50,850 bases of DNA, taken from the NCBI GenBank assembly GCA_001798885.1, contig MGQW01000094.1:1-50850 (forward strand), in the 5' to 3' direction. Positions 9,573 to 20,886 of this stretch are shown here, in pieces. Numbering within the stretch: position 1 is the stretch's first letter; each line of letters starts with the position of its first letter. The position numbers and the translations under genes were made by a program. This stretch comes from Deltaproteobacteria bacterium RBG_16_64_85. GTDB lineage: Bacteria > Desulfobacterota > Deferrimicrobia > Deferrimicrobiales > Deferrimicrobiaceae. The notes beneath the pieces are model-generated. The model made no database searches and was not told the origin of the DNA. It saw only the letters and a list, made by a program, of their open reading frames with translations.

Positions 9573-11270
9573 ATGCTGCTGGAAGAACGAGCCGATACCT
9601 TCCTCCGGATGATCCGCCGCGCCGAGCGCGGGCGGCTCAAGATCTACCTCGGTTACTGTCCCGGCGTCGGGAAGACCTACCAGATGCTGCTGGAAGGCCG
9701 CCGGATCAAGGAAGAAGGAATCGACGTGGCGATCGGCTTCCTGGAAACCCATGGCCGGACCGAAATCGCGAACCTCGCCGAAGGGCTGGAAACGATCCCC
9801 AGGAGAAAGACGGAATACCGGGGTGTTCCCCTGGAGGAAATGGACCTGGATGCCGTCCTTGCCCGGAAGCCCCAGGTCGCCCTTATCGACGAACTTGCCC
9901 ACACCAACGTTCCGGGAAGCAGGAACCCGAAGCGATACCAGGACATCCAGGATGTTCTGGCCGCGGGGATCCACGTCATCACCACGTTGAACGTCCAGCA
10001 TCTGGAAAGCCTCTACGACACGGTGGAGCGGGCCGTCCACGTCAAGGTTCGCGAGCGTCTGCCGGACAACATCGTTGCCGAGGCGGACCAGATCGTGAAC
10101 GTGGACGTGACGACCGAGGATTTGCAGAAGCGCCTGAAAGAAGGCAAGGTCTACCGGGCGGACCGGATCGAGGCTGCGATGGGCAATTTCTTCAGGACCT
10201 CGAACCTGGAGAAACTCCGCGAGCTCACGCTGCGGGAAATGGCCTCGCAGATCGACCTGCGGAGACGGGAGGCTGTGGAGCAAGAGGCAGCGGCTCCCGA
10301 CCAGGTGATGGTCGCCTTGAGCTCCCGCGGCCCAAACAGCGAAATGCTGCTCCGCTACGCATCCCGCCTGGCGGGAAAGCTCAACCGGAACTGGTACGCG
10401 GTCTACGTCCAGACCCCGTCCGAGGAGCCCACGGTGATCGACGCCCATACCCAGCGCATCCTTTCAGGAACCCTGACCCTCGCCAAGCAGCTGGGGGCGA
10501 TGGTGTTCACCTACAAGGGGGAAGACATTACGGGGACGATCCTCCGTTTCGCGAAGGAGTACCGCGTTGGGACCATCGTGGTCGGCACGCCGACACCGAA
10601 ACCGCTTTGGAAGACGATTTGGAGAAAAAGCACCGTCGAACGCCTGATTCACGAAGCGAAGGGACTCACTGTGGTGATTCTCGATACGCGCAAGGAGGAA
10701 CCTTCCGGGATCATGGCTCCTGAGGAAGAGGCAGGGCCGCCCGTCGCCGCGTCGTACGTTCCGGTTTCAACAGGAGCTTCGGCGTTGAGCGGATTCCTCT
10801 CTCCCGAACGGATCGTCGTCTGGGACCGGCCCGCGGAAAAGGACACCGTTCTTCGAACCCTGGCGAAGGCGGCGGTGGCCGGCTGCGGAGAGGTGGATCT
10901 GAATCTGGTATTGACCAACATCGCGAAACGCGAGGAGCAAGGGTCCACCTTCCTGAACGAAGGCATTGCCTTGCCTCATGCGCGCATCGAGAACCTTCCC
11001 CAAACTGTCGTCGCTATCGGGTTGACTCGGAAAGGGGTAACGGATGTATCCACTTCGATCCCGATCGAATACGTCTTCTTGATCCTGTCCCCGGCGGAGT
11101 CGCCGGAGACCCAGATCCAGATCCTGGGGCAGGTCAGCAGGGCTTCCCGCAACCGGCAACTGGTCCAGAACCTGGAATTGTGCCGCACTCCTGCAGAAGT
11201 CTTGACCGCCTTCCGTGACTGGGAAACGTCACAAGGTGCCAGCCCCCGGAAAACCGGAATAACGGGTTGA
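9573..11270 (+). CDS. KdpD sensor module fused to a PTS EIIA domain (no kinase domain)
   Basis: 565 residues. The N-terminal KdpD domain (1-225) has Walker A GYCPGVGKT (27-35) and the signature VALIDELAHTNVPGS. A universal-stress-protein-like domain follows (about 240-370). Where KdpD would carry four membrane helices, a GAF-like region and a histidine kinase, this protein instead has a linker and a PTS EIIA type-2/Ntr-like domain (about 408-550) with putative phospho-accepting His469 in GIALPHARIEN. No membrane segment or HATPase is present, so it should be cytoplasmic. In E. coli the separate EIIA(Ntr) protein binds KdpD and stimulates it when unphosphorylated, so the fusion joins two known partners. 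It cannot phosphorylate a regulator itself and probably acts on the kinase at 3189. It has a weak ribosome site, 2 bp after kdpC, implying coupled translation. Confidence 0.92.
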   Translation: MLLEERADTFLRMIRRAERGRLKIYLGYCPGVGKTYQMLLEGRRIKEEGIDVAIGFLETHGRTEIANLAEGLETIPRRKTEYRGVPLEEMDLDAVLARKPQVALIDELAHTNVPGSRNPKRYQDIQDVLAAGIHVITTLNVQHLESLYDTVERAVHVKVRERLPDNIVAEADQIVNVDVTTEDLQKRLKEGKVYRADRIEAAMGNFFRTSNLEKLRELTLREMASQIDLRRREAVEQEAAAPDQVMVALSSRGPNSEMLLRYASRLAGKLNRNWYAVYVQTPSEEPTVIDAHTQRILSGTLTLAKQLGAMVFTYKGEDITGTILRFAKEYRVGTIVVGTPTPKPLWKTIWRKSTVERLIHEAKGLTVVILDTRKEEPSGIMAPEEEAGPPVAASYVPVSTGASALSGFLSPERIVVWDRPAEKDTVLRTLAKAAVAGCGEVDLNLVLTNIAKREEQGSTFLNEGIALPHARIENLPQTVVAIGLTRKGVTDVSTSIPIEYVFLILSPAESPETQIQILGQVSRASRNRQLVQNLELCRTPAEVLTAFRDWETSQGASPRKTGITG

Positions 11271-11284
11271 ACGATCAGGAACGC

Positions 11285-12331
11285 TTAACGGCTCTTCGAA
11301 TGAATTTTCAAGCTTCCGGGTCTTCCGGGTTCGCCGTCGATGGAGTGCGTGAACGCGTGGAAGAGCCCGGTTACCCAGAGGTTGGTCAGGAGGTGCTGCG
11401 TGATGCGGGATGTTGTGAAGTACGATTCCTCACCGCAGATCGAAAGATAGAGGGCGATCTGATCCGGCAGGTGGGGGTCCAGGGCCGAGCCCGTGGAATG
11501 ATACCGGAGAAATTCCGCCGCCGCCTCCTCCCCGACCGTCTCGGCGCGCTTCCCGATCGCGCCGAGGGAGGTGAACCCCGCGGCTGCATTTTCGGATGCG
11601 GCGTGAAGGAACAGGAACGTCCCCTGGCCGGGAGTCGGCGCCTCCAGGAGGTCGATGCGCACCCCGACCTCCGACTCGCCGATTCGGGAACGGATTTTTT
11701 CCATTGCAGCCTTCCTTTGCCGTTCCGCGATCGACCTGGGGAGTCGACCGACGGCGGAGGACCCGGTGATCGCAAGGAGTTCCCCTCGTTCCGCCATCCG
11801 CAAGGGGAGGATTTTGGCCGCCGGGCGGATTTCCGCACCGATTTTCCCCCCTCCCCGCGGATAGAATCCGTATGACTCGATGGACAGCCGGACCTCCAGC
11901 CCCATCTTCGCGAGGGCCGGTGCGAAGACGTCGGAAACGTAAGGATAGGAGGGGCTGAAGGGAACGTGCGTCCCCCCGGTGAGCGTCACCGTACTCCTGC
12001 TCTCCGCGAAGAGCAACGGAGGAAGCAGGGTTTGAAGGACGAGCAGGGTGGATCCGGCGGTCCCGACGTCGAAGGCATAATCGCCTGCCTTTACCTCGCC
12101 GGGGGAAAAGGTGATCTCCGTTGAACCCGTGCGATCCCCGGTGACCTGCGCACCGGAAACGGCTTGCGCCGCCCGGACGCCGGTCAGGTGCTGAGGGCTG
12201 AGGCCCGGCTTCTTACGGTTCCTGCGGATATTGATGATCCGGAACGGTTTCCGGAACATGCAGGAGAGCGCGAGGGCAGTCCTCAAGATCTGTCCGCCGC
12301 CTTCCCCGTGGCTCCCGTCGATTTCGATCAT
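11285..12331 (-). CDS. rtcA: RNA 3'-terminal phosphate cyclase
   Basis: A 348-residue RtcA, full length for the family. It converts RNA 3'-phosphates to 2',3'-cyclic phosphates with ATP through an adenylated histidine. The N-terminal signature IDGSHGEGGGQILRTALALS is present, as is the internal motif FYPRGGGK. The probable nucleophile is His287 in DPHLPDQIAL. No rtcB ligase or rtcR regulator lies nearby. It is convergent with the kdp operon, with only 14 bp between the stops, and follows the radical SAM gene by 19 bp on the same strand, so the two may be co-transcribed. Confidence 0.95.
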   Translation of the reverse strand: MIEIDGSHGEGGGQILRTALALSCMFRKPFRIINIRRNRKKPGLSPQHLTGVRAAQAVSGAQVTGDRTGSTEITFSPGEVKAGDYAFDVGTAGSTLLVLQTLLPPLLFAESRSTVTLTGGTHVPFSPSYPYVSDVFAPALAKMGLEVRLSIESYGFYPRGGGKIGAEIRPAAKILPLRMAERGELLAITGSSAVGRLPRSIAERQRKAAMEKIRSRIGESEVGVRIDLLEAPTPGQGTFLFLHAASENAAAGFTSLGAIGKRAETVGEEAAAEFLRYHSTGSALDPHLPDQIALYLSICGEESYFTTSRITQHLLTNLWVTGLFHAFTHSIDGEPGRPGSLKIHSKSR

Positions 12332-14936: not shown

Positions 14937-15422
14937 TCATCGAATCGCCACCCGGACCAGGGTTGGTTTCAGGATCCGGGCGACATCTTTCGGATCGACC
15001 CCGACCAGGTATCCGCGCTTCCCGCCGTTGATGTAGATCTTCGGAAGATCCAGGATCGTATCTTCCATGTAGACCGGCATCTCCTTGCGCGTGCCGAAGG
15101 GAGAGGTTCCTCCCACCAGGTACCCCGTATGTTTCAGCGCGGTTTCGGGAGAGCAGGGAATCACGGTTTTAACGCCGATGATCCGTGCCAGATCCTTCGT
15201 GGATACCTGCCGGTCGCCGTGCATCAGCATCACGAGCGGGTTCCTTCCGTCGTCCTCCAGGATGAGGGTCTTGACGACGACGTGCTCGTCCACCCCCAAC
15301 TCCCGGGAGGAGACTGCGGTTCCCCCCTTCTCCTCGTAGACGTAGAGGTGGTCTGTGTACGGGATCTTCGATGCGCGGAGGACACGGACGGCCGGCGTGA
15401 CGGGCGGCTTTTCCTTCGGCAT
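14937..15422 (-). CDS. ybaK: YbaK/EbsC-type Cys-tRNA(Pro) deacylase
   Basis: A 161-residue single-domain trans-editing enzyme of the YbaK family. It hydrolyses Cys-tRNA(Pro), and sometimes related mischarged tRNAs, to protect proline codons. Family elements visible: HLYVYEEKGGT near the N-terminus, VVKTLIL containing the conserved lysine, the GVKTVIPC segment and the GYLVGGTSPFG loop. It lies 15 bp downstream of the quinone oxidoreductase gene on the same strand and is probably transcribed with it. Confidence 0.93.
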   Translation of the reverse strand: MPKEKPPVTPAVRVLRASKIPYTDHLYVYEEKGGTAVSSRELGVDEHVVVKTLILEDDGRNPLVMLMHGDRQVSTKDLARIIGVKTVIPCSPETALKHTGYLVGGTSPFGTRKEMPVYMEDTILDLPKIYINGGKRGYLVGVDPKDVARILKPTLVRVAIR

Positions 15423-15437: not shown

Positions 15438-16406
15438 TTACGGGAGGAGCAGGACCTTTCCCGTGGTTTTCCGTCCCGAAAGCTGCCGATGGGCCTCCGC
15501 CGCCTCCGGCAACGGGAACCTCGCGGCGATCCGGACCTTGAGCTCCCCGGAGGCCACCCACCCGAGCACGACGTTCGCCCTCCAAAGGAGTTCTTCACGC
15601 GTCGCCGTGTACTGGCCCAGGGAGGGCCGGGTCAAAAACAGCCCCCCCTTGGTGTTGAGGATCTGAGGGTCGAACGGCGGCACGGGCCCGCTGGACTGTC
15701 CGTAGAGCGCCAGGTACCCCCGGGGGGCGAGGCAGTTCAGGCTCTTCTCGAAGGTCGTCTGCCCCACCGAATCGTACACCACCTGCACCCCTTTGCCGCC
15801 CGTAAGAAGTCTCACCTCGGACTCGAAGTCCCGCTCGGTGTAGAGGATGACCTCGTCGGCGCCGAACGCGTGTGCAAGCTCCGCCTTTTCCTTCGTGGAG
15901 ACCGTGCCGATCACGCGGGCTCCCCGCCGCCTGGCCATTTGCGCCAACAGGAGGCCGACGCCGCCGGCCGCCGCGTGAACAAGGCAGGTGTCCCCGGGCT
16001 GGAGAGGATAGGTGCTGTGAGTCAGGTAATGGGCCGTCATCCCCTGGAGCATCGCCGCCGCGGCCAATCCGCCGTCGACCCCGTCGGGGAGCTTGATCAG
16101 CCGCCAGGAGGGGACGACCGCATATTCCGCGTAGGAGCCGAGTGCCCCGGCGTACGCGACCCGGTCGCCCACGGCCACCTCGCCGACCCCGGGTCCCGTC
16201 TCCGCAACGACGCCGGACCCCTCGTTGCCCGGGGTAAAGGGAAGGGGGGATCGGTAGAGCCCCATCCGCTGATAGACGTCGATGAAATTGACCCCGATCG
16301 CCTCGAGCTTGACGAGCGCCTCCCCCTTGCCGGGTTTCGGAACGGGGAGGTTCTCCATCGCGAGGTTCTCGGGTTCGCCGTACTGGTGGACGCGGATGGC
16401 TTTCAC
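15438..16406 (-). CDS. NADPH:quinone oxidoreductase, zinc-free MDR family (Qor-like)
   Basis: A 322-residue medium-chain dehydrogenase/reductase of the quinone oxidoreductase branch. Markers are the N-terminal [24 protein letters not shown], the coenzyme-binding [15 protein letters not shown] motif and YDSVGQTTF. It lacks zinc ligands, as expected for Qor, which reduces quinones with NADPH in the cytoplasm. The GTG at 16406 is chosen because AGGAGGAAACC precedes it directly; an in-frame ATG 60 bp upstream has no such site and would add non-family residues. It is separated from the alcohol dehydrogenase gene upstream by a long hairpin. Confidence 0.92.
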
Positions 16407-16450
16407 GGTTTCCTCCTGTGCGGCAAGGCGCGCATCGTCAAGGTGGACAA

Positions 16451-16479
16451 GGGCAGGCCGGCGCAATGCCGGCCTGCCC
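16451..16479. terminator. Perfect 12-bp hairpin between alcohol dehydrogenase and quinone oxidoreductase genes
   Basis: GGGCAGGCCGGC pairs perfectly with GCCGGCCTGCCC around a 5-base loop. It lies 5 bp beyond the alcohol dehydrogenase stop on the minus strand. Only a weak T-containing tail follows (TTGTCC), so it may be an inefficient terminator, a transcript-stabilising stem, or a copy of a dispersed palindromic repeat. Confidence 0.5.
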
Positions 16480-16483
16480 TACA

Positions 16484-17494
16484 TCAGGGGGTAAGCACGG
16501 CGCGGAGTCGGACCTTCCCTTTGCGCAGCCTCTCCAGGACCTCGTTGGTGTTTTTCAGCGGATGCCGCTCCACCAGCGGCGCGATCCCGTGGTCGGCGGC
16601 AAACCGCAGCATGGCGTCCATGTCGTCCCGTGTGCCGATCACGGAGCCGCAGATGTGCTTCTGCCCCGTGATGAGGCCCGCGGGGATCAGGGAGGCTTTC
16701 TCCGCGATGGCCGCCAGCACCACGAGGGTCCCGTTGGGGCCCAGGCCCGGGATGCACTGCTCGAAGAGGCGGGCGGAGATCCCCGTCAGCAGGATCAGGT
16801 CCGCTCCTCCCATCGAGGAAAGCCGTTTCCCGATCTTCTCCTTTTCCGCATCGATGATCTCGCTGGCCCCCATCTGCCTCGCGAGGGGAATCTTCTCTTC
16901 CCCGCGGAGGATGGCCACGACCCGCGCCCCCATCGCGGACGCCATGCGAAGCCCCAGGTGTCCCAGTCCGCCGATCCCCGCCACCGCGACGGTTTTCCCG
17001 GCCAGGTTCCCCGCCCGGCGAAGCGGCGCGAAGACCGTGATCCCGGCGCACAGAAGGGGAGCCGCCTCCACGAGGTCGAGACCCTCCGGTATCCTGTGGG
17101 TAAAGGCCGCAGGCGCCTTGACGAACTCCGCGTAGCCGCCGTTCACGGTGACGCCGGTGCTTTTCTGGGCGGCACAGAGCATCTCCGCCCCGGACTTGCA
17201 GGGGGCGCACTCCCCGCAGGCGAATTGCATCCAAGGAATGCCTACCCGGTCTCCGGGGGCGAGGGTTTTCACTTCGCTTCCCACCTTTTCCACGATGCCG
17301 GTCGCCTCGTGTCCCGGAACGATGGGCAGGGGTGTTCCCCAGTCCTTCCAGTCCCCGTCGACCAGGTGGAGATCGCTGTGGCAGACCCCGCAGCCGCTCA
17401 CCCGGATCAGCGCTTCGCGGGGTCCAGGGGAAGGCGTCGGCACTTCCGAAAGGACCAGCGGTTTCCCGAAGGCTTCGCATACGGCGGCTTTCAT
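16484..17494 (-). CDS. Zinc-dependent alcohol dehydrogenase
   Basis: A 336-residue zinc MDR alcohol dehydrogenase of the AdhP/AdhA type, oxidising primary alcohols or reducing aldehydes with NAD(H). The catalytic zinc site is shown by CGVCHSDLH and GHEATG, the structural zinc by CGECAPCKSGAEMLC, and the coenzyme site by AVAGIGGLGHLGLRMA. The ATG at 17494 overlaps the stop of the upstream OsmC-family gene (ATGA), so translation is coupled, suggesting a shared redox or detoxification task. The length agrees with the family. No defects. Confidence 0.94.
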   Translation of the reverse strand: MKAAVCEAFGKPLVLSEVPTPSPGPREALIRVSGCGVCHSDLHLVDGDWKDWGTPLPIVPGHEATGIVEKVGSEVKTLAPGDRVGIPWMQFACGECAPCKSGAEMLCAAQKSTGVTVNGGYAEFVKAPAAFTHRIPEGLDLVEAAPLLCAGITVFAPLRRAGNLAGKTVAVAGIGGLGHLGLRMASAMGARVVAILRGEEKIPLARQMGASEIIDAEKEKIGKRLSSMGGADLILLTGISARLFEQCIPGLGPNGTLVVLAAIAEKASLIPAGLITGQKHICGSVIGTRDDMDAMLRFAADHGIAPLVERHPLKNTNEVLERLRKGKVRLRAVLTP

Positions 17495-17970
17495 CGGGTG
17501 TCCCCCGCCAACTCGGTGATCTCCGCGCAGTCGCTGATCTCGATGGCCCCCTTCACGCTCATCGCCGCGGGACATTTCTCCTCGTAAACCTTGAGCGCCT
17601 CGCGTGCGTCTGCTGTTTTCCCCGGGGGGACCTTGAGCGTGTATTTTACCCGGATTTTCGTGATGCGCAGCACGCCGTCCACGTCCTCGACGTCTCCTTC
17701 CACGTCGGCCCTGAACCGATCGCCGAACGTGGGGATCTTCCTTCCGGCCAGCACCGTGGCCAGTGTCCCCATCATTCAGCCCCCCACCGCCCCGACGATG
17801 TGATCGAGCGTGGCGGCATGCTCCTTTTCCGGCTCGACCTTGTAGAAGTGCTTGATCCCGCCGTGGACGCCGTAGTAGACCGGTTCCGCGAACCCCTCGA
17901 TCATCGCCTTTCGCGTCGGGCCTTTTTCCCGCGTGATGACGATCCGCGAGGTGTGAACTACCTGTCCCAT
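17491..17970 (-). CDS. OsmC-family protein with in-frame TGA, probable selenoprotein
   Basis: Read through one TGA (17778-17776) this is a 159-residue OsmC-like protein; read conventionally it is two in-frame pieces of 64 and 94 residues. OsmC proteins are cysteine-based peroxidases that reduce organic hydroperoxides. The TGA is residue 65, in GAVGG-stop-MMGTLATVL, exactly where the family has its first catalytic cysteine. The second catalytic cysteine is Cys133 (YEEKCPAAMSV), 68 residues later; E. coli OsmC has a spacing of 66. Only the N-terminal piece has a clear ribosome site (AGGAGGAAACG before the ATG at 17970). A hairpin resembling a bacterial SECIS follows the TGA. The most likely reading is selenocysteine insertion. 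Alternatives are a nonsense mutation or restart at the ATGATG directly after the TGA. The stop overlaps the alcohol dehydrogenase start. Confidence 0.85.
17731..17770 (-). promoter_or_regulatory. SECIS-like hairpin downstream of the in-frame TGA
   Basis: In the mRNA, 5 bases after the UGA, GGGGA (17770-17766) pairs with UCCCC (17735-17731). Within it CUGGCC pairs with GGCCGG (6 bp including one G-U), closed by an A-U pair over the loop CGGUGC. The apical loop begins about 19 bases after the UGA and has G at its second position, within the usual range for bacterial SECIS elements. Folded by hand; energy not computed. Confidence 0.6.
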
Positions 17971-18147
17971 CGTTTCCTCCTGTCCCCGGAAGTGTTCTTC
18001 AGGTGTTAGATGACGGTAACAGTTTAAAGGATGGAGGTACCGGAGAAGAATAGGATTTTTTCGGAAAATGGACTAAATAAAGGGCGATAAAAAACCGATA
18101 AATAGAGGGAATCGGAGGGTCAGGGAGCTATCCCTGGGAGAGATTAC
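17971..18147. other. A+T-rich divergent spacer
   Basis: This 177-bp region between the OsmC-family gene and the hybrid kinase is the most A+T-rich stretch nearby (18030-18110) and must hold promoters for both genes. The region TAAATAAAG...GATAAAAAACCGATAAATAG contains several possible -10 elements, but I cannot choose one with confidence. Confidence 0.35.
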
Positions 18148-20886
18148 GTGATCGCGATCCTCGTCGGGTCAGCATTTTTCCAGTTTCTCGCGGCGTTTCT
18201 TTCGGTCCGGTTCGTCTATACCCGCCGGCTGGGGCGCCCCTGGATCCTGGTTTCTCTGGGGCTTCTCATCCTGGGAGGGCTTCGGGTGTACGCACTTGCC
18301 GGCAGCCTCTCCGAAACCGCCTCCGGAATCTTCGACCCCACGGTGGAGAGGTTCTCCCTGCTGGTTTCCTTCCTCCTGGCATCCGGGTTCGCGCTCACCG
18401 AGCGGTGGTTCCTCCTGAAGGAGCGGCTGGAGGGCCGGTTCCGGCTGATCTCCGAGGTGGACCAGTCCCTGATCGGCGTCCTGGATGAAAACCGGATCCT
18501 GTTCAACGTGTGCGAGGTGCTTTCGCGGCGCAAAGGATACCGCCTGGCATGGATCGCTGCCGGGGAGCTCGATGGCTCCGTCCGGGTCGTGAAACACGCG
18601 GGAGAGGGGGAAGCGCCCCTCACGAGCGCTGCCATCCGGTGGGACGATGCCCCGGAAGGGCAGGGGCCCACGGGTCGTGCGCTTCGAACGGGAGAGGCGT
18701 GCGTTGTGAACCGCATGCGGAGGAACCCCCGCATGGCGGCATGGGAGAAGGTCCTCGCGGAATCCGGCGTCCGCAGCGCGGCCTCCGTTCGCATCGAACC
18801 CGACGGGCAGCAGCCGATGGCGCTGACCATCTACGCGGACGCCCGTTCCGCCTTCGACCGGCTGGAGATGGAGGCCGTCTCCGCGCTGGCCCACCGCGTC
18901 GGAGGGGCCGTTCAGAGCGCGAGGCGGTACGAATTCTTCGTTTGCGCGAAAGGGGCGTACGACGACCTCCTTCGGACGCAGCGGGACGGTGTGATTCTCG
19001 TTCGTGGAGAGAAGGTCGTCCGGGTCAACCTCGCGGCGGCGGCGATGCTCGGATACCGGGAGGAAGAGCTCGTCGGGATGGATCCCGCCGTGATCCTCAA
19101 GGATTCACAAGAGAAGCCGGAGATGGCGAGGAGCCTTCGCGGCGGCGGCGAGGACGGCGGACGCTTCGAGTGGGAGGCGGAAATCCTGCGAAAGGACGGA
19201 TCCTCCTTCAGCGGGGAAGTCATCGCCACGTGGCTCCCCAGGGAGTACAAAAAGGCGACTTGGATCCCGAAGTTCAGCGGGCCGCTCGGGATGATCATCC
19301 TTCGGGACATTACCCAGAGGAAACAGTTTCTGGAGGATCTGCGCAAGGAGCGCGATTTCTCCGCGAAGATCCTCGCCATCGCCGGGGTCCTCGTCGCGCA
19401 GCTGGGCCCCCGCGGAGAGGTTCTCCTGGTCAACCGCCAATTCGAGGAGATGACGGGATACCACGGGGAGCAGGTCTCCGGCCGGGAGATGGCCGGGTTG
19501 CTGATCTCCGGGACGGCGCGGGATTCCTACCTGAGGGCATTCGCAGACGTACTCAAAGGCAACGTTCCGTCCAACCTCGAGTTCCCGATCGTGTCGAGGA
19601 CGGGCGAGGAACGGCTGGTGGTCTGGAACCACGCGGCCCTTCGGGATTCGGCCGGGCAAGTGACCTCGGTGATCGCGACCGGCACCGACGTCACGGAAAG
19701 CCGCCGCCTGGAGCGGCAGATCATCGAGATGCAAAAGATGGAAGCCGTGGGCACGCTTGCCGGTGGGGTCGCCCACGACTTCAACAACATCCTCACCGGG
19801 ATCCTCGGGAACCTCGACCTGGCCAGCGAGGCCATCCCTCCCGAGTCCCTCGCGGCGCTTCCCATCCAGGAATCGATCAAGGCTTCGGAGCGGGCTGCCA
19901 ACATGGTCCGCCAGCTCCTGGACTTTTCCCGTCGCTCCCCCTCGGAGCGGCGGGCCATCGACCTGGGGAAACTGGCGCAGGAGGTCGTGGACCTTTTTGC
20001 TCAGGCGATCGACAAACGGATCGAAGTGGAGACCTTTCTCACCGGCGATCTCTGGCTGGCGAAAGCCGACCCCAACCAGATGCACCAGGTGATGATGAAC
20101 CTCTGCGTGAACGCCCGGGACGCGATCATGGAGTGCCTGGAAGGGAAACCACGCACCGAAGAGCCGTCGGGAAGATACAGGATCCGAATTCTCACGGGAA
20201 ATGCTGCCATCGGGGAGGAATACTGCCGGCAGCACCCCTACGCGCGCCGGGGGGATTTCGTCGTCCTGTCGATTTCGGACAACGGTTCCGGCATGGACAA
20301 GGCGACCCAGCGGCGGATCTTCGAGCCGTTTTTCACCACGAAGAAACTGGGACGGGGAACGGGTCTCGGGCTCTCCACCGTGTATGGCATCATGAAGCAG
20401 CACGAGGGGTGGATCACTCTGGAAAGCCAGACGGGGAAGGGGACGACCTTCCATGCCTACTTGCCGCGGGCGGAAGAACGGCAGGCAGAGAAACTCCCGC
20501 CCCCGGAAAAAGCCAAGGCGAGGACGGGGAAGGAAACGATCCTCCTGGTGGATGACGAGGAGATGATCCGGAACTTCGCGCAGCAGATCCTCGAGATCCA
20601 CGGCTATTCCGTCGTGACGGCGGCCGACGGGCAGGAGGCGGTCGACCTCTACATCCGGCAGCGGGACCGGTTCGACCTCGTGATCCTGGACCTCACGATG
20701 CCGCACCTGTCCGGGTCCGAGGTCCTGACGCGGATCCGCAACCTCAACTCGCACGCAAAGGTCATCTTGTCCAGCGGTTACCCGTCGGGGGAGACCTACC
20801 GGGCCTCCGCATTCCTCCCCAAGCCGTACCGAGCCGACACGCTGATCCGGGTCGTGCGGGAAGTCCTCGACCTCTACAGGGGTTAG
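18148..20886 (+). CDS. Hybrid sensor histidine kinase (TM-GAF-PAS-PAS-HisKA-HATPase-REC)
   Basis: 912 residues, starting at GTG 18148 after GGGAGAG. Three N-terminal hydrophobic segments (about 1-22, 33-53, 68-88) anchor it. A GAF-like domain (about 95-255) and two PAS domains (about 270-395 and 405-520) follow, then HisKA with His543 (GVAHDFNN), a catalytic domain (NLCVNARDAI, DNGSGMD, GTGLGLSTVYGI), and a C-terminal receiver with Asp848 (VILDLTMP). The AHDFNN-type H box and attached receiver are typical of kinases that regulate through phosphorelay. No partner regulator with an output domain is adjacent. It is convergent with the acs operon, with 4 bp between the stops. The signal sensed cannot be told. 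Confidence 0.93.
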   Translation: MIAILVGSAFFQFLAAFLSVRFVYTRRLGRPWILVSLGLLILGGLRVYALAGSLSETASGIFDPTVERFSLLVSFLLASGFALTERWFLLKERLEGRFRLISEVDQSLIGVLDENRILFNVCEVLSRRKGYRLAWIAAGELDGSVRVVKHAGEGEAPLTSAAIRWDDAPEGQGPTGRALRTGEACVVNRMRRNPRMAAWEKVLAESGVRSAASVRIEPDGQQPMALTIYADARSAFDRLEMEAVSALAHRVGGAVQSARRYEFFVCAKGAYDDLLRTQRDGVILVRGEKVVRVNLAAAAMLGYREEELVGMDPAVILKDSQEKPEMARSLRGGGEDGGRFEWEAEILRKDGSSFSGEVIATWLPREYKKATWIPKFSGPLGMIILRDITQRKQFLEDLRKERDFSAKILAIAGVLVAQLGPRGEVLLVNRQFEEMTGYHGEQVSGREMAGLLISGTARDSYLRAFADVLKGNVPSNLEFPIVSRTGEERLVVWNHAALRDSAGQVTSVIATGTDVTESRRLERQIIEMQKMEAVGTLAGGVAHDFNNILTGILGNLDLASEAIPPESLAALPIQESIKASERAANMVRQLLDFSRRSPSERRAIDLGKLAQEVVDLFAQAIDKRIEVETFLTGDLWLAKADPNQMHQVMMNLCVNARDAIMECLEGKPRTEEPSGRYRIRILTGNAAIGEEYCRQHPYARRGDFVVLSISDNGSGMDKATQRRIFEPFFTTKKLGRGTGLGLSTVYGIMKQHEGWITLESQTGKGTTFHAYLPRAEERQAEKLPPPEKAKARTGKETILLVDDEEMIRNFAQQILEIHGYSVVTAADGQEAVDLYIRQRDRFDLVILDLTMPHLSGSEVLTRIRNLNSHAKVILSSGYPSGETYRASAFLPKPYRADTLIRVVREVLDLYRG

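Follow-up and report, generated by a model that had tools for sequence, protein, structure and literature searches.

An apparently interrupted OsmC-family gene almost certainly encodes an intact redox enzyme with an active-site selenocysteine

The OsmC gene and its neighbours

The window analysed here is a stretch of 50,850 nucleotides from Deltaproteobacteria bacterium RBG_16_64_85 (contig MGQW01000094.1). On its minus strand lies an OsmC-family reading frame that appears to be broken by a stop codon. Translation of 17491-17970 on this strand gives 159 residues with a single internal TGA, at codon 65, and another TGA at the end, in agreement with a preliminary description of this DNA, whose coordinates and residue numbers (65 and 133) were correct. 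The features of the locus are as follows.

17491..17970, minus strand: OsmC-family gene, almost certainly for a selenoprotein; 159 codons, in-frame TGA as codon 65, stop TGA at 17491-17493
17776..17778, minus strand: TGA very probably read as selenocysteine, residue 65, at the first OsmC redox position
17572..17574, minus strand: codon of Cys133, the invariant partner (CP motif) and likely resolving cysteine
17976..17981, minus strand: ribosome-binding site AGGAGG
17730..17775, minus strand: predicted SECIS element, with a lower stem (nucleotides 5-10 with 41-46 after the UGA) and an upper stem-loop
17744..17763, minus strand: conserved upper hairpin CUGGCCA-CGGUGC-UGGCCGG, whose loop begins 20 nt after the UGA
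16484..17494, minus strand: zinc-dependent alcohol dehydrogenase of 336 aa, its start overlapping the OsmC stop

The AGGAGG sequence stands 5 bases ahead of the OsmC start ATG. The joined frame scores 46.4 bits against the Pfam OsmC model (PF02566, gathering score 27.5), which is also matched by all 23 relatives aligned with it. Besides Cys133, the protein has an extra, non-conserved cysteine close to its C-terminus.

The OsmC stop and the alcohol dehydrogenase start share the sequence ATGA. The nearest NCBIfam model to the dehydrogenase is the aldehyde reductase Ahr, with a score below the model cut-off. Coupling of the two genes, as suggested earlier, holds for close relatives, the dehydrogenase being directly 3' of the OsmC gene in 8 of 12 tested members of the source's family; no tested relative outside this family has the arrangement, and the dehydrogenase was accordingly rejected as a general partner. 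Upstream of the OsmC gene, a divergent GAF/PAS hybrid histidine kinase with a receiver domain is encoded at 18148-20886 (plus strand). In several members of the source's family a relative of this kinase adjoins the OsmC gene; outside the family none recurs at that place. The same leftward run of genes also includes a quinone-reductase-like protein (15438-16466), after which comes the Cys-tRNA(Pro) deacylase YbaK (14937-15422, minus strand), which scores over its NCBIfam cut-off. Elsewhere in the window are an RNA 3'-terminal phosphate cyclase (11285-12331, minus strand), a strong match at 387 bits, and a protein that joins a KdpD-like sensor domain to a PTS EIIA domain (9573-11270, plus strand), in which no kinase domain was matched.

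Conservation of the TGA codon and of the hairpin behind it

The internal TGA is a fixed feature of this OsmC subfamily. It occupies one shared column in 23/23 aligned homologues, drawn from relatives and from searched genome contigs, with identities down to 35%. It is likewise found at the expected position in 59/59 loci tallied by script and in another three that were read manually; these 62 loci include some records that were fetched twice and represent 53 distinct nucleotide contexts. None of the 62 carries Cys, TAA or TAG at the selenocysteine (Sec) column. Of 395 genomes searched in the source's phylum, 36 contain strong matches (E of 1e-53 or lower), and each match has a single internal TGA. 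In 30 of 396 Acidobacteriota genomes the match spans most of the protein and likewise has one TGA; left out of this count are a fragment that lacks the site and a weak, partial match that does have a TGA. Carriers of the subfamily make up about 9% of the genomes sampled in the source's phylum and about 8% of the sampled Acidobacteriota. Its distribution extends over several bacterial phyla, and a named strain, Desulfacinum hydrothermale DSM 13146 (locus L038), and a Nitrospiraceae bin (locus L040) are among the carriers. A search of plasmids returned no homologue. The next-ranked matches in the source's phylum are Cys-containing OsmC proteins (E about 1e-14) that belong to another OsmC branch and lie clearly outside the subfamily. 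Since no Cys form of the subfamily was found in the 791 genomes sampled from the two phyla, it is perhaps restricted to Sec. At positions 12237-12365 of contig C20 in genome G211, a fragment matches subfamily residues 2-44, contains an internal TAA and ends before the site; it is possibly a decayed copy. Values of dN/dS are 0.09 before the TGA and 0.23 after it, indicating that both halves are under purifying selection.

The RNA downstream of the TGA is also constrained. Starting at the TGA, a stretch of 51 nt folds into two stacked stems with an energy of -18.7 kcal/mol (z -2.2 relative to dinucleotide shuffles). The apical loop, CGGUGC, has G at its second position; the preliminary description, which put the loop about 19 bases downstream and G within the first two loop positions, is close. 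Within the family, differing pairs make up 0.36 of the synonymous codon pairs 5' of the TGA and 0.37 in the distal part of the frame; in the 12 codons immediately 3' of the TGA the value is 0.13, about one third of the level elsewhere. The stability of the hairpin exceeds what the amino acid sequence requires: against synonymous-codon resampling it reaches z -9.2 (37 sequences) and z -6.9 (16 sequences), scores that overstate significance because related sequences are not independent.

Two forms of the hairpin are found over the same residues. In the Desulfobacterota type, nucleotides 13-19 after the UGA pair with 26-32, while in the Acidobacteriota type, which uses another register, 20-25 pair with 31-36. 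In each of the two clades, the cells in which both sides of a pair had changed outnumbered those in all 500 shuffles, a comparison whose significance is similarly overstated by the relatedness of the sequences, and slid structures paired far worse. Joint folding of both clades with RNAalifold yielded no structure because the registers differ; when the clades were folded apart, a structure was found. A search of Rfam gave no match, and the hairpin of Desulfacinum is weak (-6.3 kcal/mol).

Decoding of the UGA codon and function of the product

The source genome, a 2.2 Mb draft in 96 contigs that is 99% complete, encodes SelB (323.6 bits, over the cut-off), SelA (570 bits) and a tRNA-Sec (selC) with a UCA anticodon (73.9 bits). 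For selD, the C-terminal part alone is present, because contig C32 begins inside the gene, and this part scores under the family cut-off. Absence of selB or selC had been named as grounds for abandoning the selenoprotein reading, and both genes are there. None of the formate dehydrogenase-like proteins of this genome has an internal TGA. It follows that a Sec formate dehydrogenase does not maintain the Sec system here, and such an enzyme was rejected as a second selenoprotein. In the source's family, selA is present in 13/13 genomes that bear the OsmC gene, and the three genomes without selA all lack the gene, a correlation that by itself does not reach significance (Fisher p 0.08). Matches to selA were also obtained in 7/7 carriers from the other searches, one of them (in the genome of locus L043) being a fragment at a contig end.

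A search of PDB sequences with the protein or its profile found no match, and comparison at the level of fold was therefore needed. The AF2 model (pLDDT 84, pTM 0.81) predicts an OsmC fold. Its best Foldseek match is E. coli OsmC (1nye, E 8.9e-8), and VIA-align comparisons with OsmC/Ohr structures give Z of 10-13 and rmsd of 2-3.5 over about 95-125 residues. In the alignment to E. coli OsmC, Sec65 falls opposite Cys59 and Cys133 opposite Cys125, which places the TGA at the first catalytic cysteine. In Ohr, the catalytic disulfide forms between these two redox positions, and Arg19 and Glu51 complete the active site; in XfOhr, the catalytic Glu51 stands ten residues before the reactive Cys61 (PMC5962072). 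The corresponding position in the present protein, residue 55 (Cp-10), is Leu, or Ile in some relatives, and the next residue, Asp56 (Cp-9), is invariant. The N-terminal half of the subfamily contains the invariant residues R20, G34, H36, G37, I39 and Y43. Arg20 may correspond to the catalytic Arg, though alignment of the N-terminal region to OsmC is unreliable, and the subfamily motif G-x-H-G-x-I (residues 34-39) falls in a low-confidence stretch of the model and has no obvious counterpart in OsmC.

Taken together, the Sec machinery, the universal TGA and the conserved, covarying hairpin strongly support incorporation of Sec, and there is little doubt that the locus encodes one 159-residue OsmC-fold selenoprotein in which UGA65 is decoded through SelB and the downstream hairpin. 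Translation would begin at the ATG led by AGGAGG and reach the UGA at codon 65, where SelB, bound to the hairpin just 3' of the codon, would bring Sec-tRNA. Sec65 would then sit in the central helix in place of the first reactive cysteine of OsmC, with Cys133 of the CP motif standing in for the second. Chemically, the selenolate would probably attack a substrate in oxidised form, for which a hydroperoxide is the simplest candidate, and a Sec65-Cys133 selenenylsulfide would then form and be reduced by a cellular reductant.

Because an ATG directly follows the TGA in the source, termination and reinitiation has to be considered. In such a split gene the ribosome would stop at the UGA and restart at the next ATG (TGAATGATG), producing two polypeptides that assemble. 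The ATG is found in the source and in all Desulfobacterota-type relatives, and a run of G lies just ahead of it. However, 13 loci of the 59 in the tally, and two of those read by hand, have CTG as the codon after the TGA, the stop is TGA in every one of the 59 and never TAA or TAG, and the hairpin, the suppression of synonymous change and the placement of the TGA at the catalytic position would go unexplained. Reinitiation fails for these reasons, and we consider a split gene very improbable; by the model, it would also separate the redox positions onto two chains and cut the central helix (H55-76). A pseudogene or a sequencing error at 17776-17778 might be suspected from the single internal stop and the draft, 96-contig state of the genome, but its probability is next to nil: the same TGA recurs in several phyla, including in Desulfacinum hydrothermale, dN/dS is well below 1 on both sides of it, and the relatives have no in-frame stops elsewhere. 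Conservation of the TGA and of the hairpin, in two registers, disfavours both of these explanations alike. Recoding of UGA as Trp or Cys, at this site or throughout the genome, draws on the open frame and on nothing else. It is extremely improbable: TGA serves as the ordinary stop of this very gene (17491-17493), no component of the Sec machinery other than the cut selD is incomplete, and distant homologues have Cys, not Trp, in the UGA column.

The function of the selenoprotein is less settled than its decoding. The preliminary description proposed a functional selenoperoxidase; its Sec part stands, while the peroxidase part was drawn from the fold and the cysteine pair and meets a hydrophobic residue where Ohr has its Glu. 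Peroxidase activity is plausible yet unproven for the subfamily, because the redox positions match those of Ohr but the Glu position is Leu or Ile. An alternative, which bears on the assigned function alone and not on selenocysteine, is that the protein performs another reaction, such as reducing or cleaving a small electrophile. It would suit the displacement of the acid from Cp-10 to the invariant Asp at -9 and the subfamily's own G-x-H-G-x-I motif, and an OsmC/Ohr-like protein that lacks thiol-dependent peroxidase activity is reported (PMC4069020). Against it stand the fold and both redox positions, which are as in the OsmC/Ohr peroxidases, and the invariant Arg20, which could replace the catalytic Arg. 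This alternative is a genuine though somewhat doubtful possibility.

Relation to known OsmC proteins and selenoproteins

OsmC selenoproteins have been reported before, as the preliminary description stated, and those belong to another subfamily. An OsmC-like selenoprotein with the motif UxxT was described from the Sargasso Sea in 2005 (PMC1088965) and again, with UxxT, from GOS data in 2008 (PMC2398784), and a 2026 review of 119 selenoprotein families and subfamilies lists OsmC in the UxxT form only (PMC13188914). The NCBIfam model NF041052 (OsmC_like_Se), judging by its name and motif, describes the same family as the 2005 proteins. A search of the source genome with this profile at E 1e-15 gave no match. 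Its Sec-containing members in the source's phylum come from two genomes, at loci L116 and L117, with the motifs ULLT and UMFS and one internal TGA each. A tree built from 49 OsmC proteins places the source subfamily in one group (support 99/95) and the NF041052 Sec members on the other side; it has several long branches, and its deeper joins are unsure. As read from these sequences, Sec is present in at least two separated OsmC branches, and two origins of Sec within OsmC are likely. Within the open-access papers and the NCBIfam release consulted, the subfamily is apparently distinct and uncatalogued.

In any genome that carries it, the gene probably appears in annotation as a pair of fragments or as a pseudogene, and the subfamily is covered neither by NCBIfam nor by the 2026 review of 119 families. 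It is unusual for a selenoprotein family to show no Cys forms, and this makes it directly testable what selenium achieves here beyond the reach of sulphur. With two hairpin registers over one protein motif, the subfamily is also a natural example of SECIS turnover. We tentatively propose, at slightly less than an even chance, that this is a Sec-obligate OsmC subfamily whose chemistry depends on selenium so heavily that Cys forms do not persist and that the two registers are the trace of a shift of the SECIS element.

Compared with known systems, the protein is of a known general kind, the OsmC selenoproteins, and forms a distinct subfamily that is possibly Sec-only. With the UxxT proteins and NF041052 it shares the OsmC family, Sec at a redox cysteine and a hairpin past the UGA; its own motif is UxxG as opposed to UxxT, and it scores 14.7 bits against NF041052, for which the curated cut-off is 95. 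E. coli YhfA (19% identity; placed in the tree on a long, unsure branch) has in common with it the acidic residue at Cp-9 and a Gly-Gly before the reactive residue. The fold and the two redox positions are shared with E. coli OsmC and bacterial Ohr, from which the protein differs in having Sec for the first Cys, no Glu at Cp-10 and an N-terminal half specific to the subfamily.
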